Virus record (IMG/VR): IMGVR_UViG_3300010883_012763
Coordinates: 1-21,246 of that record
Reading direction: 5' to 3' (one strand)
DNA: 21,246 nt
Origin: a virus
The position numbers and the translations under genes are program-made. The notes beneath the pieces are model-generated. The model did no database searches, was not told the DNA's origin, and was given only the letters and a program-made list of their open reading frames with translations. This document shows, one piece after another, positions 10,112 through 20,914 of this stretch (within the stretch, counting starts at the first letter, position 1; the number at the start of each line of letters is the position of its first letter).

Positions 10112-10404
10112 CGTTTCGCCGCTCCCGTTTTTTGGTAATCGCGGATGTCGGCAATCTTCCAGTCTGCGAAGTCCATCAATGCCTGCGATGTTTTCCAAGC
10201 GGCGTCGGGCGTGACCCATCGCCACCAAGCGTTTAGCTGGTTTTCATCTTGCGTTCGCAAAGCGACCGTCTTGACCGCAGCCCATGCGCCCACTCGTTCA
10301 TCTAGCGGGCAAAAATCCAACGACTCAAACGACACCAGCTCTGCAAAACGCTGGGCAGTCTTGTCCGTCAATAGATGCTCAATCGTTTTCGTTCTTGTCA
10401 TCAT
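10108..10404 (-). CDS. Hypothetical protein of the small-gene chain
   Basis: Ninety-eight residues starting MMTRTKTIEHLLTDKTAQRF; either of two adjacent ATG codons may be used. It is rich in Trp (AWAAVKTVAL, LNAWWRWVTPDAAW, FADWKIADIRDY) and probably helical. I recognise no domain. AAGGAAACGAAACG precedes the start, part of a 26-base sequence that also precedes the gene at 11321. Start and stop both overlap neighbours as ATGA. Confidence 0.65.
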   Translation of the reverse strand: MMTRTKTIEHLLTDKTAQRFAELVSFESLDFCPLDERVGAWAAVKTVALRTQDENQLNAWWRWVTPDAAWKTSQALMDFADWKIADIRDYQKTGAAKR

Positions 10405-10426
10405 CGTTTCGTTTCCTTGTTTGTGT
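10401..10426 (-). repeat. Repeated 26-base translation leader, copy 1
   Basis: Perfect copy of positions 11318-11343, containing the ribosome binding site and the start codon of the gene at 10404. Here the copy lies inside the coding region of the upstream zinc-finger gene, so it also encodes that protein's C-terminus (HTNKETKR). Confidence 0.8.
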
Positions 10427-11108: not shown

Positions 11109-11321
11109 TTAAAGGGTTTCAAGAAGTTCAGAAACCGTGATCGTCTCGCCCTGCCAGTCTGAGAAGTTGCCTGCGTCAAAGTTGATCCCGCGTTCTCGCA
11201 GCTCATCGCACATCGACCGGATGTTCTCAAACGTGTCGCGGACGATGATGCTTTCGGGATTGTTCAGGCGGTCGTAAGGCTTTGCGTCAGGTGAGATAAA
11301 AATCTGTGTCGTGCTGGTCAT
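11109..11321 (-). CDS. Small acidic hypothetical protein, first gene after the promoter
   Basis: Seventy residues (start MTSTTQIFISPDAKPYDRLN; end FSDWQGETITVSELLETL). It looks like a mixed alpha/beta acidic protein, and no family is recognised. The ATG at 11321 is preceded by AAGGAAACGAAACG, and the mRNA leader from the predicted promoter would be only about 30 bases. Being first in the chain of small genes, it may be strongly expressed. Confidence 0.65.
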   Translation of the reverse strand: MTSTTQIFISPDAKPYDRLNNPESIIVRDTFENIRSMCDELRERGINFDAGNFSDWQGETITVSELLETL

Positions 11322-11343
11322 CGTTTCGTTTCCTTGTTTGTGT
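11318..11343 (-). repeat. Repeated 26-base translation leader, copy 2
   Basis: Identical to positions 10401-10426. On the minus strand each copy ends with AAGGAAACGAAACG and the ATG of a gene. Shorter relatives (GAACGAAACGATG and GGCGAAACGATG) stand before the genes at 11094 and 10111. Confidence 0.8.
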
Positions 11344-11357
11344 TTCCTGATAAGAGT

Positions 11358-11387
11358 AAGATAGCACAGATTGTGTGCATGTGTCAA
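11358..11387 (-). promoter_or_regulatory. Strong sigma-70-type promoter with extended -10
   Basis: On the minus strand a perfect -35 TTGACA (11387-11382), an 18-base spacer and TATCTT (11363-11358) preceded by TGC, an extended -10. Transcription would start near 11351 and run into the gene at 11321 and the small-gene chain. An inverted repeat covers the whole spacer and -35, so the promoter is probably controlled by a repressor. Confidence 0.75.
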
Positions 11388-11402
11388 ACACAAACTGTGC
11401 TA
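11362..11402. promoter_or_regulatory. Operator-like inverted repeat over the promoter
   Basis: Two 15-base arms (TAGCACAGATTGTGT at 11362-11376 and ACACAAACTGTGCTA at 11388-11402) are complementary except for one central A-A position, with an 11-base gap that holds the -35 box. No T-run follows on either strand, so it is more likely a protein binding site than a terminator. A second dyad, TTCCGA/TCGGAA at 11403-11420, abuts it. Confidence 0.65.
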
Positions 11403-11477
11403 TTCCGAGATTTTTCGGAAATATATTTCGCCCTGCCATATCAGTGTTATCGGCACAGCGTGTGCCAGAACTTTAGC

Positions 11478-11648: not shown

Positions 11649-11661
11649 GTCAGTCGTCCAT
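11621..11661. repeat. Direct repeat flanking the DegT gene, downstream copy
   Basis: 41 bases matching 12756-12792 with four substitutions and one 4-base insertion. It comprises a copy of the last bases of the terminase gene (ATGGACGACTGA on the minus strand) and the first codons of the zinc-ribbon membrane gene. Confidence 0.8.
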
Positions 11662-12746
11662 TACTCACGGAACGCGAGCACGGCATCGATCACCCGCTGC
11701 TGATCGTCAATGTTCAGTTCGGGGTAAATCGGCAGCGATAAGATTTCACCGGCAATTCGCTCAGTCTCCGGCAGTTCGTCCGATCCACGTAGCCGCCCCG
11801 CATACGCCGGTTGCCGATGGACGGGCACAGGATAATGCACGCTGGCACCGACGCCGCGAGATCGCAGGAACTTCAGAATCCCATCTCGTCGGTTCGTTCG
11901 GATCGCATACTGATGGAAGACATGCCCGTCGGTTCGTGCGGGCAGATGAACGCCTCGCAGCCCCGCATCGTATCGTGCCGCGATGTCGCGACGCGATATA
12001 TTGAAGCAATTAAGAAGCGGCAGCTTGACGCGCAATACGGCGGCCTGAATCTCGTCGAGTCGGGTATTCCAACCGGGCCGCTCGCTGACAAACCGTCGCT
12101 CCCATCCATATTCTCGCAGTGATCGCATCCGCTGCGCAAGACTGGCATCGTTCGTCGTCACAATGCCGCCGTCACCCAGCCCCCCAAGATTCTTCGTCGG
12201 ATATAAGCTGAAACAGCCGATGTCGCCGATTGAGCCGACACGCCGACCTTTCCATGTTGCTCCGTGCGCCTGACTGGCATCTTCAATCACCCGCAAGCCG
12301 TGCCGAGATGCCACTTCACAAATCCCATCCATGTCGGCCGACTGGCCGTAGAGATGAACCGGCAGAACGGCCTTCGTGCGCGACGCGATGGCCGATTGCA
12401 GTTTCGCTGGATTCATCGTCATCGTGACTGGATCAACATCGACCATCACGGGTGTTGCCCCTGCCAGTTCAATCGCGGCCACAGTCGCAACTGCCGTGTG
12501 CGACACCGTGATGACCTCGTCACCCTCGCCGACGCCGCAAGCAACCAGTGCGATGTGGATTGCCTCGGTTCCGCTGCCCACGCCAACAGCATACTCGGTG
12601 CCGATGTACTCAGCGAACTCTGACTCGAAAGCTGCAACTTCATCGCCGAGAATGTACCAGCCGCTATCGAGAAGCCGCCGGATAGCTGCGTCGATTTTCT
12701 CTCGCAGCGACAGGTATTGTGCGTGTGGATTGCTGCAATGAATCAT
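11661..12746 (-). CDS. DegT/DnrJ/EryC1/StrS-family sugar aminotransferase
   Basis: A full-length PLP enzyme of 361 residues. Visible signatures are YAVGVGSGTEAIHIAL (cofactor phosphate region), VITVSHTAVATVAAIELAGA, VIEDASQAHGA (the Asp that contacts the PLP ring nitrogen), FSLYPTKNLGGLGDGG (Lys of the internal aldimine) and WNTRLDEIQAA. The family transfers an amino group from glutamate to a nucleotide-linked keto-sugar; sequences of this type often act on dTDP-3-keto-6-deoxyhexoses. It lies between the terminase and a zinc-ribbon gene, an odd place for metabolism, and direct repeats flank it, so it looks like inserted cargo. It may supply an amino sugar for the glycosyltransferase near position 475 or alter host glycans. 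The exact substrate cannot be read from the sequence. Confidence 0.93.
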   Translation of the reverse strand: MIHCSNPHAQYLSLREKIDAAIRRLLDSGWYILGDEVAAFESEFAEYIGTEYAVGVGSGTEAIHIALVACGVGEGDEVITVSHTAVATVAAIELAGATPVMVDVDPVTMTMNPAKLQSAIASRTKAVLPVHLYGQSADMDGICEVASRHGLRVIEDASQAHGATWKGRRVGSIGDIGCFSLYPTKNLGGLGDGGIVTTNDASLAQRMRSLREYGWERRFVSERPGWNTRLDEIQAAVLRVKLPLLNCFNISRRDIAARYDAGLRGVHLPARTDGHVFHQYAIRTNRRDGILKFLRSRGVGASVHYPVPVHRQPAYAGRLRGSDELPETERIAGEILSLPIYPELNIDDQQRVIDAVLAFRE

Positions 12747-15561: not shown

Positions 15562-15592
15562 AAAAACGTCGCTCCGTGGTTAGGGCGTCACC
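15562..15592 (-). repeat. 31-base intergenic leader repeat, copy 1
   Basis: Matches 15860-15890 with one substitution. On the minus strand it runs from the stop codon of the upstream gene (GGTGA) through CCACGGAGCGACG to TTTTT and ends just before a possible start codon (TTG here, ATG in copy 2). It contains a GGAG ribosome site at the same distance in both copies. Confidence 0.85.
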
Positions 15593-15859: not shown

Positions 15860-15890
15860 AAAAACGTCGCTCCGTGGTTAGGGCATCACC
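15860..15890 (-). repeat. 31-base intergenic leader repeat, copy 2
   Basis: See the copy at 15562-15592. Here the leader is followed by the ATG of the MKEKQ minicistron. I could not fold either copy into a convincing hairpin. Confidence 0.85.
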
Positions 15891-17354: not shown

Positions 17355-17822
17355 CTACCGATTCCCCCCCGCGTAAAACTCAACGACGCCGCGTGACGAC
17401 GGTGCCGACTTGGCGTACACGAACTGATACCCGGCTCCATCGTCGCCGAACATATCCGGCTCGATGGCGACCGCACGGAACCCGCTCGCCTTGAAGAACA
17501 ACTGAGCGTCGAGGTTGGTCTCGTGCAGGCCAATCGAAATGTATTCTCTGCTGCTGGTCAACAGGCGGCTGATCATGTCGTCAATCAGCATCCGCCCGTC
17601 GATCTCCTCGTTGCCCGCACAGATGCCGACGATCTCAATTGACGAGCCGGTCAGCTCATAGACAACGAACGCGGTCGGGATGTTGTCGTGCTCGTCAACA
17701 GTGACCCGTCCGACGCAGTGCCGACCGCGTAGCCGCTTGACGAGCGACTCCTCGTCGTAGCCGCTCGCGTCAAGCCGCACGATGTGCGGGACGTCTCGCA
17801 TCAGTAAATGTCGTGTGATCAT
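17355..17822 (-). CDS. GNAT-family N-acetyltransferase
   Basis: A protein of 155 residues with the layout of RimI-like acetyltransferases: IVRLDASGYDEESLVKRLRG, then VDEHDNIPTAFVVYELTGSS (central strands), IEIVGICAGNEEIDGRMLID (acetyl-CoA binding region; the usual Q/RxxGxG/A loop is altered to NEEIDGR), and LHETNLDAQLFFKASGFRAV, the typical ending. It would acetylate an amino group of a protein or small molecule using acetyl-CoA. The altered loop is an oddity that may reduce activity. The ATG at 17822 overlaps the helicase stop as ATGA; an upstream TTG at 17828 is less likely. Confidence 0.85.
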   Translation of the reverse strand: MITRHLLMRDVPHIVRLDASGYDEESLVKRLRGRHCVGRVTVDEHDNIPTAFVVYELTGSSIEIVGICAGNEEIDGRMLIDDMISRLLTSSREYISIGLHETNLDAQLFFKASGFRAVAIEPDMFGDDGAGYQFVYAKSAPSSRGVVEFYAGGNR

Positions 17823-19462
17823 TCCCAAACCCCCATCTGATGCTGGACCCGTGGTTCGCGTGCGATGATCAACCGCTTCTTCGCTCGCGTCACTGCAACA
17901 TACGCGATGCGTGCTTCCTCGTCAGCCCCGGCTTGCGTGTCCTGCGACGCGGCCACCTGCTGCGATGTCGTTGGTAGGATCACCACGTTATCGGCTTCCG
18001 CACCCTTGGCCCCGTGGATCGTCGAGACGATCACGTTGGTCTTCTCGACAATGCCCATGCCCCACTGCGTCACCGCCTCGACGTACTCGTCGGCCTGCTT
18101 GATCCACGAACGCCACTGGCACTTCTTGACCGCTGCGATGAACTGCTCGGTCGCACCCCATGCCGCCATGCCTTCGAGGTTATTCAGGTCGGTGACCGGC
18201 CCGTCGTATTTCTTCCAGCGTGTCTTGGTGCCGTTCTCCAGCAGGTTATTACCCTCGGTCCGCGACGGGCAGTGCTTCAGCACGTCGAGCCACTCGGTGA
18301 TCGTGATGACGCCGCCGTACTGCAGTTCGAGCATCGCCCGGCAAGCCGCGTTGCGGGACGGTGCCGACCAGCGGCTGCCGCCTTTCATCATCGCCCACGG
18401 GATGCCATTGCCGTCGAGTCGCTTACCTAACCGACGCGCGGTGTAGTTCGTACGCGCGAGCAGCAACCACGACTCGGTCGGGTCAACCATCGACGGCCAG
18501 TCAGATGCGTACATCACCGACTCGATCTCGCCGTGATGCGGCGCAGGTATGACCTCACGGTCCCAGTAGTCGCTACAGTCGCGTATGCACTCCTCGCCCA
18601 GCTCAACTATCGGGGCGGGGCATCGATACGTCTGACGCAGCACCTCGCGTTTCTGAACGTCCCACGCCTGAAACAACGCCGGGTCGGCCCCACTGAACGA
18701 AAATACACTTTGGAAGGGATCGCCGACGAGGTAGCAGAACTGCGAGTCGCTGACCAGCCGCCGTGCGACGAGGTCAATCAACGCTGATTGATCCTGTGCC
18801 TCGTCTAAAAACCACGCGGTCAACTGCGGGATCTCACCGACAGGCTCGGTGTCATTGTGTCCGTCGAAGCGGAATTCCTTTCCGGCGTACTGACCCAGCA
18901 GGTCGGTGAAGTCGAGCCGCCCGTCCAGTCGCTTCGCCTGTTCGTAGGCGTCAACGGTCTGACGGCACTCAGTCATGCTCGGTGTGTTGTGGTCAGTCTG
19001 CTCTGTGATTGCCCACGCGTCCGAGAAGGGCACCAGTCGGCTGCGTGCGGACGACCAGATGGCAAGTGCGGTATCTGACTCAGTTCGCTGTGACGCGACC
19101 GTGTAGCCGTCGTCATCGTCGCTACCGCCCCCACCGCTGACCGGCTTGCCGATGGCCGCCTCGATCCACTTTTTGTCCTCGGTCGTATCGCCGATCATCT
19201 GAGCCTTGCGGATGCCCAGCAGCCGGTAGCAGCACGAGTGTAAAGTTCTGAACCAGCCGTCGATCTCCAGTTCGTGAGCCGCTACGCCCATACGGTCAGC
19301 CGCCCGGGTTGACGCTTCGCGTCGGGCCACCTTGGTGAACGATACAAAGCCCACATCCATCGGTGACGTACCGCGATCCAACAATAGGCTCATGATGTCG
19401 AGCAGGCGGGTTGTTTTGCCAGATCCCGCCGATCCGATGATCAGTGCTGACTTGATTGTCAT
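17819..19462 (-). CDS. UvrD/Rep-family superfamily 1 DNA helicase
   Basis: A protein of 547 residues with the full set of SF1A motifs: Walker A GSAGSGKTT (10-18), FVSFTKVARREA (Ia), LDEAQDQS (219-226, Walker B), YLVGDPFQSVFSFSGADP (III), RQTYRCP (IV), TIHGAKGAEADNVVILP (V) and RIAYVAVTRAKKRL (VI). It unwinds DNA 3' to 5' using ATP and probably serves phage replication or recombination. It is shorter than host UvrD (about 720 residues), as phage versions often are. The ATG at 19462 overlaps the previous stop as TAATG with GGGGAG eight bases before it. A Gly/Asp-rich insert (GGGGSDDDD, 110-118) lies between motifs Ia and II. Confidence 0.95.
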   Translation of the reverse strand: MTIKSALIIGSAGSGKTTRLLDIMSLLLDRGTSPMDVGFVSFTKVARREASTRAADRMGVAAHELEIDGWFRTLHSCCYRLLGIRKAQMIGDTTEDKKWIEAAIGKPVSGGGGSDDDDGYTVASQRTESDTALAIWSSARSRLVPFSDAWAITEQTDHNTPSMTECRQTVDAYEQAKRLDGRLDFTDLLGQYAGKEFRFDGHNDTEPVGEIPQLTAWFLDEAQDQSALIDLVARRLVSDSQFCYLVGDPFQSVFSFSGADPALFQAWDVQKREVLRQTYRCPAPIVELGEECIRDCSDYWDREVIPAPHHGEIESVMYASDWPSMVDPTESWLLLARTNYTARRLGKRLDGNGIPWAMMKGGSRWSAPSRNAACRAMLELQYGGVITITEWLDVLKHCPSRTEGNNLLENGTKTRWKKYDGPVTDLNNLEGMAAWGATEQFIAAVKKCQWRSWIKQADEYVEAVTQWGMGIVEKTNVIVSTIHGAKGAEADNVVILPTTSQQVAASQDTQAGADEEARIAYVAVTRAKKRLIIAREPRVQHQMGVWE

Positions 19463-20370
19463 TAGCCACACTCCCCGAACTCGAACCGTGCGGAGCGTGC
19501 CGCAACAGCCGCGCGCGCGGCGTGGTCACCTTTGTGGTTCATACCACCAACATGCCCGAACTGCCCGTCCGCGATAGCGAAAACCGTTCGATGATCGCAG
19601 TGCATTTCCACCGCTACGCAGTCCACGGGGTCGCCGCTCATAACAACTATCCGATTCCCCGCCTTGGCAAAAGCAGCCATCTTCGCTTCTTCCTGATCCG
19701 CTGAGAAGAACGCCGCCGCAGCCGCATCGACGCACTCATACACACCAAACTGGCTCGCGAGTGTAGAGCAAACCCAGAAGTCGGATCGATCAAACGGCTC
19801 GTGGTTGTAGTGGTCAGTGATCATGGTCTCCCTGTAAATCTTCTCGTCAATCCCCAATAACACCGGGACAGCATATGCCGCCGCTTGTCCGATCTCTACT
19901 AACGTTCCGTAGCAGTCCGGTACGTCGATCCAAGCAAACACGGCATCGGCACTCTTTAATCGGGACGTGTTATCCGCTACGACATCGCAGATCGAGGGAT
20001 ACGATGTTTCACTTCCAGAGTTCCCGTGCGGTCCGACATAGTGCTTATCTGTCAAATCCGGACCGCAGCACTTCATTCGGTGCTCATCGTACACGGACCG
20101 CCTCCAGTCGTCGCCTTTGATTCTCCCTGCAAGATATACTCGTGGCACAAAAGCAGGCTCGAAGCTGCGGGGCTTTATCTCAATCCACACAGCCCCCCAT
20201 CGGGTTTTGATCTTAAAATCCGGTAGGTACCTGACGCCATCGGCCAACTGAAATCCCTCCGGCTCATACTCCCACGGGATGTTTAGTTCGGAAAAGAACA
20301 CAGCCCATCGGGCTTCAAGCCGACTGCGGAATCGACATCCCGCGTACTTCGTTTCGATTGCCTTAATCAT
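19462..20370 (-). CDS. PD-(D/E)xK nuclease fused to a deoxyribosyltransferase-like domain
   Basis: A protein of 302 residues. Residues 8-70 follow a phage nuclease pattern: YAGCRFRSRLEARWAVFF (Glu19), IPWEYEPEGFQLADGVRYLP then Asp51, and VWIEIKPRS (Glu64 and Lys66), a PD-(D/E)xK active site. Residues 77-175 read PRVYLAGRIKGDDWR, SADAVFAWIDVPDCYGTLVE and IGQAAAYAVPVLLGID, which fits nucleoside 2-deoxyribosyltransferase-like proteins; the Glu in GTLVEIG would be catalytic. A third part (200-302) with Ala-rich helices is unassigned. The start at 20370 has AAGGGAG upstream. It overlaps the helicase start and is the first gene after the control region. Confidence 0.8.
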   Translation of the reverse strand: MIKAIETKYAGCRFRSRLEARWAVFFSELNIPWEYEPEGFQLADGVRYLPDFKIKTRWGAVWIEIKPRSFEPAFVPRVYLAGRIKGDDWRRSVYDEHRMKCCGPDLTDKHYVGPHGNSGSETSYPSICDVVADNTSRLKSADAVFAWIDVPDCYGTLVEIGQAAAYAVPVLLGIDEKIYRETMITDHYNHEPFDRSDFWVCSTLASQFGVYECVDAAAAAFFSADQEEAKMAAFAKAGNRIVVMSGDPVDCVAVEMHCDHRTVFAIADGQFGHVGGMNHKGDHAARAAVAARSARFEFGECG

Positions 20371-20454
20371 CGTCGCTCTCCCTTTCAAAAAACAGTCAGG
20401 CTCGACGCCACGTCGGCCATGCTCGTGTAGCGTAAGCGGCCGTCGCTTGTTGAA

Positions 20455-20580
20455 TTAAGTCTGCGATGAATCCCCTACCCAGACACCTGACTGAACGCAA
20501 AAAACCCACGAGCAGTGCAAGCGGAAAGGGAACCGCTGCCGGTAAACCGGCCTACTCGTGGGTTTTGTATAACTAGTCAT
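20455..20580 (-). CDS. Possible 41-codon leader ORF over an attenuator
   Basis: On the minus strand AAAGGGG stands four bases before ATG at 20580, opening a frame MTSYTKPTSRPVYRQRFPFR and continuing to TAA at 20455. It reads straight through both arms of the terminator hairpin. The peptide resembles nothing known, so if it is translated its purpose may be to disturb the hairpin. Confidence 0.25.
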   Translation of the reverse strand: MTSYTKPTSRPVYRQRFPFRLHCSWVFCVQSGVWVGDSSQT

Positions 20581-20602
20581 GTCGCCCCTTTCTGCTTGCA
20601 CC
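20497..20602 (-). ncRNA. Structured leader or small RNA ending in a terminator
   Basis: Read on the minus strand this region begins at the predicted start of transcription. It contains four segments: 1 (20601-20586) pairs with 3 (20530-20515) over 16 bases with one A-C mismatch; 2 (20566-20555) pairs perfectly with 4 (20512-20501) over 12 bases, and segment 4 ends in six Ts. Between 2 and 4 lie two small hairpins (GCCGG/CCGGC and AGCGG/CCGCT). The 2:4 stem plus T-run is an intrinsic terminator enclosing a three-way junction. The 1:3 pairing crosses it, so the two are either alternatives or a pseudoknot. This looks like attenuation of the gene at 20370 or a stable phage RNA of about 100 bases. 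Confidence 0.6.
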
Positions 20603-20605
20603 GTC

Positions 20606-20634
20606 AATATATCTCAATCTGTGCCGGTTATCAA
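20606..20634 (-). promoter_or_regulatory. Sigma-70-type promoter of the leader RNA
   Basis: On the minus strand TTGATA (20634-20629), a 17-base spacer, then TATATT (20611-20606). Each box differs from consensus at one base. Transcription would start near 20599, exactly at the first paired segment of the structured RNA. Confidence 0.7.
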
Positions 20635-20754
20635 TAGACAGGGTTCAAAAAATGAACCGATGGTTTCAGAAAATCGGAAGTGACCGCAAAAACGAAAAGT
20701 GTGTAAGTACACTACAATTCACCGCGTTTCTCAGCGATCAGCGTGACGAAAAGT

Positions 20755-20774
20755 GCTTTTGATCGTACAAAAGC
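20755..20774. promoter_or_regulatory. Operator-like dyad
   Basis: A seven-base inverted repeat GCTTTTG/CAAAAGC with a six-base gap (ATCGTA) in the AT-rich control region. The size suits a dimeric repressor site. No protein is assigned. Confidence 0.4.
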
Positions 20775-20914
20775 CCGTATGTTCCACACGTTTTTGTAGT
20801 AAGTGAACACGCAATGACTTTGCTACTAAAGGGTTTACGCAAATGTGTACGACGTGTGCGCCAACTTTCGGCAAAAGTACCTACCCAGTCCCCCCTATAG
20901 CAAAACGCTTTTAA

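Follow-up and report, generated by a model that had tools for sequence, protein, structure and literature searches.

A candidate leader RNA with two interleaved inverted repeats before a nuclease-helicase operon of an uncultured phage

Described leader RNAs and the present locus

In P4, the CI RNA pairs with seqA and seqC, located upstream and downstream of it, which stops transcription into the replication genes (PMC4825925); in Gifsy-1, the short, terminated IsrK RNA has its own read-through form as target (PMC4825925), and the c4 RNA of P1/P7 carries complementary segments in loops that are aimed at a ribosome site (PMC12197685). In the pyrBI leader of E. coli, a coupled ribosome can keep the leader terminator from forming (PMC10135430).

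The locus described here belongs to a virus record of 21,246 bases (the window, meaning the whole stretch analysed) with terminase, portal and Mu-F-like genes, the minus strand of which carries all likely genes. It occupies part of the 526 bases that separate the end of an unidentified gene (20915) from a block of two genes, named a "nuclease-helicase operon" in an earlier note on this DNA. That label is right: the first gene fuses an N-terminal Holliday-junction-resolvase-like endonuclease domain to a nucleoside 2-deoxyribosyltransferase-like domain and the second encodes a helicase of the UvrD/Rep type. Most viral relatives of the nuclease gene (19462-20370) match its N-terminal domain alone.

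The likeness to P4 lies in a leader placed before replication genes and in premature termination; as in the seqA-seqB-seqC arrangement, a middle segment is complementary to sequences upstream (arms 1 and 2, Table 1) and downstream (three 8-nt stretches, P = 0.0002 in a post hoc test). However, the P4 RNA arises by processing and brings about termination through antisense pairing (PMC4825925), whereas the RNA here is predicted to run from its own promoter to an intrinsic terminator. Neither a satellite state nor an immunity role is indicated for this phage, which has terminase and portal genes of its own in the window, and neither sequence comparison nor Rfam models revealed a relation to CI. 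The architecture fits that of IsrK: a promoter and an intrinsic terminator that would bound a short RNA, a predicted read-through mRNA and potential pairing with the leader of the next ORF. IsrK, which has no sequence match here, activates translation; since the loop here covers the Shine-Dalgarno sequence itself, repression is predicted instead.

The c4 class (RF01695) is similar in that a short, structured RNA (about 77-100 nt) carries loop complements to a ribosome site, and here too an 8-nt loop is complementary to the ribosome site of a gene of the same phage, although that gene is the nuclease gene and not an antirepressor. The covariance model of C4 antisense RNA (RF01695) gave no match to the locus at its gathering threshold, nor up to E = 10. 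To our knowledge, the c4 design has no counterpart to the pairing between arm 3 and the 5' end of the RNA. The pyrBI leader resembles the locus in having its terminator overlapped by a short ORF and differs from it in its U-rich pausing tract, in the genes that follow and in lacking an additional pairing over the ribosome site.

No Rfam family reached its gathering score, with weak, stem-driven matches at E up to 10; the best of them, TEG147 (21.8 bits, the gathering score being 56.1), was rejected because the terminator stem and T-tract alone match. An HDV-like ribozyme, considered for the 1-2-3-4 order of the arms, was likewise rejected, as the locus has neither an Rfam match nor a fourth helix. 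Similar DNA was found neither in phages nor in plasmids (blastn). DNA-pattern scans (three of viral contigs, one of genomes) returned no relative of the element, and protein scans with the nuclease, terminase, helicase and capsid-region genes returned distant protein relatives, none with the element, from collections that may lack near relatives of the window, so that these searches are no proof of uniqueness. A related nuclease domain occurs in 80 viral loci, that gene being all they have in common with this phage, and in none of them does a comparable stem and T-tract stand just before it. When a covariance model of this one sequence was run against 590 kb of loci, it recovered nothing beyond the loci already retrieved by stem pattern and some weak matches. 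Three genome matches to the outer terminator stem were rejected as homologues, being plain perfect hairpins.

Promoter, interleaved repeats and predicted folds

The promoter TTGATA-17-TATATT of the earlier note is present on the minus strand (Table 1); it was scored as a sigma-70-type promoter, on the assumption that the host uses sigma-70. At the usual spacing, transcription would start at 20599-20601 and proceed into two interleaved inverted repeats. The start had been placed precisely at the first base of arm 1 (20601); the fit holds to within about 2 bases but is not exact. Across the window, the minus strand has five promoter-like sites that match at least 10 of the 12 consensus positions and the plus strand has none, where shuffles predict 0.38 for each strand, an enrichment that makes the class likely functional in this phage; in the intergenic region on the minus strand, 0.035 such sites are expected by chance. 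The interval between the terminator and the nuclease gene holds no further promoter of 9/12 or better, so that the operon would in effect be reached by read-through.

Just upstream of the -35 element lies a palindrome, GGTTCA-TTTTT-TGAACC (20642-20658, centre near -50), a plausible candidate operator for an activator or repressor. The stretch 20600-20900 is AT-rich (about 42-47% G+C against 59% overall) and contains several short palindromes (GTGTAAGTACAC, GCTTTTGATCGTACAAAAGC), while ACGAAAAGTG occurs twice in it; it could be a control region or a replication origin.

Table 1. Minus-strand features of the candidate leader and of the operon that follows
Feature	Sequence	Position	Strand	Remarks
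Sigma-70-type promoter	TTGATA, 17 bases, TATATT	20606..20634	minus	-35 at 20634-20629, -10 at 20611-20606; 10/12
Arm 1	GTGCAAGCAGAAAGGG	20586..20601	minus	pairs with arm 3
41-codon ORF across the structure	GAAAGGGGCGAC before ATG	20455..20580	minus	putative coding
Arm 2	AAAACCCACGAGTAG	20552..20566	minus	5' strand of terminator stem
Hairpin	GCCGG-TTTA-CCGGC	20538..20551	minus	inside terminator stem; in MFE and centroid
Hairpin	AGCGG-TTCCCTTT-CCGCT	20520..20537	minus	8-nt loop 20532-20525; in MFE and centroid
Arm 3	CCCTTTCCGCTTGCAC	20515..20530	minus	pairs with arm 1; 5' part also with nuclease Shine-Dalgarno
Arm 4	CTGCTCGTGGGTTTT	20501..20515	minus	3' strand of terminator stem
T6 tract of intrinsic terminator	TTTTTT	20499..20504	minus	
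Downstream strand segment	CAGTCAGG	20486..20493	minus	complement of 20400-20393
Downstream complement	CACGAGCA	20420..20427	minus	complement of TGCTCGTG in arm 4 (20514-20507)
Second stem-plus-T6 arrangement	CCTGACTG-TTTTTT	20387..20400	minus	just before nuclease Shine-Dalgarno; partner 20493-20486
Nuclease Shine-Dalgarno	GAAAGGGAG	20378..20386	minus	predicted target of loop
First operon gene (nuclease)		19462..20370	minus	ATG 20370
Second operon gene (UvrD/Rep-type superfamily 1 helicase)		17819..19471	minus	likely ATG 19462

The two repeats follow each other in the order 1-2-3-4, and arms 3 and 4 are contiguous, base 20515 being the only one they share. A 12-base perfect stem with T6 had been described; it is present as the 2:4 pairing and extends to 15 pairs with one G-U. 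The 16-base segment said to pair with a later one is present as the 1:3 repeat, although 15 of its 16 pairs are Watson-Crick, the odd one being an A.C mismatch on the minus strand and a G-U on the plus strand. The window contains no second repeat of either class; in shuffles of its whole length, a repeat of the 1:3 class turns up in 7% and one of the 2:4 class in 13%, while 3000 shuffles of the intergenic region gave none like 1:3, four like 2:4 and none holding both together. The observation of the earlier note is confirmed, and the repeats are non-random.

The fold energy of 20602-20490 lies below that of shuffled sequences (z = -2.8), as does that of the opposite strand (z = -3.0), and thus fold energy alone cannot pick the strand, which is assigned as minus by the promoter, the T6 tract and the direction of the genes. 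The duplex energies of the two pairings are -24.5 kcal/mol (1:3) and -23.7 kcal/mol (2:4). Folding of successive transcript lengths, a check proposed at the outset, gives an ordered result: 1:3 is the best nested fold at about 80-96 nt, and from about 100 nt it is replaced by the terminator stem with two hairpins. The terminator stem is part of the MFE as well as of the centroid, and so is the hairpin that carries UUCCCUUU as its loop.

As 1:3 and 2:4 overlap by base 20515 at most, they do not compete in the manner of trp-type alternatives, and successive folds contain no strong antiterminator using arm 2 or arm 4; a trp-type attenuator switch was rejected on the ground that the terminator and the 1:3 pairing are not mutually exclusive. 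The original reading as an attenuator is thus partly supported: the promoter, the terminator and the place before the nuclease-helicase operon stand, but the two pairings can coexist and are not the mutually exclusive alternatives that an attenuator needs. The two would fit a pseudoknot or a folding of one after the other; in the pseudoknot, arms 1 and 2 would both sit on one continuous strand, 3-4, and the single-stranded links would measure 19 nt (arm 1 to arm 2) and 21 nt (arm 2 to arm 3, including a hairpin), which is judged sterically possible though tight.

Complementarity to the nuclease leader

The whole 8-nt loop UUCCCUUU is complementary to AAAGGGAG of the nuclease Shine-Dalgarno sequence (seven Watson-Crick pairs and one G-U), a link that is new here and was missed in the earlier note. 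On the minus strand of the window, AAAGGGAG occurs once, at this very site, and among 26 gene starts examined the nuclease start alone matches the loop in full. When 35 hairpins in the 400 bases before these starts were compared, the other full-loop match was a single trivial one of 6 nt, at the helicase gene. Like the 1:3 and 2:4 pairings, this one is read from one sequence.

More widely, the strand 20534-20486 finds three perfect 8-nt complements in 20485-20371 (the nuclease Shine-Dalgarno, CACGAGCA at 20427 and CCTGACTG at 20400), where shuffles give a mean of 0.07; the P value quoted above belongs to tests devised once the repeats had been seen. These three come in addition to the two complements upstream, arms 1 and 2. 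In a window-wide control, 0.23% of positions (three loci) likewise reach three such complements. Since arm 1 is itself Shine-Dalgarno-like, the complementarity of arm 3 to a further Shine-Dalgarno sequence in this phage is in part to be expected. Taken by itself, the downstream leader shows no unusual degree of structure in comparison with shuffles (z = +0.3); when the short RNA and the nuclease leader are cofolded freely, the optimum is not the loop-Shine-Dalgarno pairing, and the nuclease Shine-Dalgarno may, in the predicted folds, be partly paired with itself.

A proposed restraint of the operon and competing readings

The observation is real and non-random, and the locus is probably a leader RNA with a regulatory role, generally of a known kind but in an unusual arrangement. 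The reading tentatively preferred, with something less than even confidence, is that it is the leader of the nuclease-helicase operon and that a terminated RNA of about 103 nt restrains the operon, both by termination and by anti-Shine-Dalgarno pairing. The promoter-like site, both repeats, the terminator, the loop-Shine-Dalgarno complementarity and the further complements are present in the sequence, and from these we infer where the transcript starts and stops, as well as the pseudoknot, the read-through and the repression. RNA polymerase would start at about 20600 and usually stop at the T6 tract (20499), yielding a structured RNA in which two hairpins cap a terminator stem of 15 bp. The 5' 16 nt could pair back, as a pseudoknot or a folding intermediate, which would mask both the ribosome site and the 5' end of the RNA itself. 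The smaller share of transcripts would read through into the nuclease and helicase genes; on these, the loop or arm 3 would pair with the nuclease Shine-Dalgarno, either in cis or with the short RNA acting in trans, and this pairing would lower translation of the nuclease.

If true, this would add an unrelated member to the few phage leader RNAs (P4 CI, c4, IsrK) that restrain replication or antirepressor genes; a leader-internal brake would now be found in an uncultured phage, before a nuclease-helicase operon, and such wiring would be suggested to have arisen more than once. A bolder version is improbable: that arms 3 and 4 act as one 3' strand in a permuted pairing with two upstream segments, holding the 5' and 3' ends in one coaxial pseudoknotted rod, and that this strand pairs alternately with the nuclease leader, such that termination, the leader ORF and the translation of the replication genes in the operon would all be under the control of a single RNA.

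The strongest rival, itself unlikely, is a pyrBI-like attenuator, in which a ribosome promptly engaged on the 41-codon ORF would block 2:4 and allow read-through, while late initiation would let 1:3 shut the ribosome site and 2:4 terminate transcription. The ORF, noticed early on, is indeed there at 20580-20455; it covers the whole structure, ends 44 nt beyond T6 and has a plausible ribosome site, the 3' part of arm 1 (GAAAGGG) being Shine-Dalgarno-like, by virtue of which it could be translated. Its start, GAAAGGG-GCGAC-ATG, resembles the nuclease start (P = 0.002), and the 1:3 pairing, which would conceal this site together with the RNA 5' end, precedes 2:4 in the successive folds, an order that suits the rival, as does the precedent of the coupled ribosome in pyrBI (PMC10135430). 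Against it, the peptide has no homologue (tblastn against phages), ORFs of this length commonly arise by chance, with one of 40 codons crossing the site on the other strand, the leader offers neither a U-rich pause tract nor a regulatory codon run, and no signal to sense is apparent. Such coupling and the restrained operon could also operate together.

A doubtful alternative is an independent small RNA of the phage that targets host RNAs or other phage RNAs in trans, or binds a protein; the downstream operon would be irrelevant to it and would be served by transcription from upstream. Its own promoter and strong terminator speak for it, and both ends would sit in helices, which favours a stable RNA; yet the adjacent gene is the best unique target found, and there are no relatives displaying a conserved RNA. 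Still less probable is a checkpoint like that of the lambda late promoter, where Q allows RNA polymerase past a terminator before the late genes (PMC4825925): the short RNA would be the by-product of a constitutive promoter and a phage antiterminator protein would overcome the terminator. The layout is alike (promoter, about 100 nt, terminator, operon), but there is no Rfam match, no nut-like element discernible by eye and no antiterminator gene among the window proteins tested, and both the 1:3 pairing and the loop-Shine-Dalgarno match would be left unexplained.

A DNA element (inverted repeats bound by protein, or a replication or recombination site), with the RNA incidental, is very unlikely: the AT-rich region with its palindromes to the right and the slightly better 1:3 pairing on the other strand agree with it, but the phase of the promoter, the T6 tract and the Shine-Dalgarno complementarity indicate a minus-strand RNA, and long arms separated by 36-55 bases are unusual for dimeric protein sites. 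Least credible is an ordinary terminator of the upstream operon next to a chance promoter-like sequence and a chance repeat, with no regulation, because, although unrelated genomes hold simple terminators with the same outer stem, those three cases are plain hairpins without extra arms and the joint chance of repeats, promoter and complements is very low.

Elsewhere in the window, a second good promoter, TTGACA-18-TATCTT (11358-11403), lies within a 16-nt inverted repeat (ATAGCACAGATTGTGT / ACACAAACTGTGCTAT) that is operator-like. An identical 26-nt sequence comprising ribosome site and start, ACACAAACAAGGAAACGAAACGATGA, stands before two different small genes (10401-10426 and 11318-11343) as a start-associated repeat, and a DegT/DnrJ/EryC1 aminotransferase gene (11661-12746) is found between small genes and the phage terminase gene. 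A 31-nt direct repeat (15562-15592 and 15860-15890) is 97% identical between its two copies, which are 298 bases apart.
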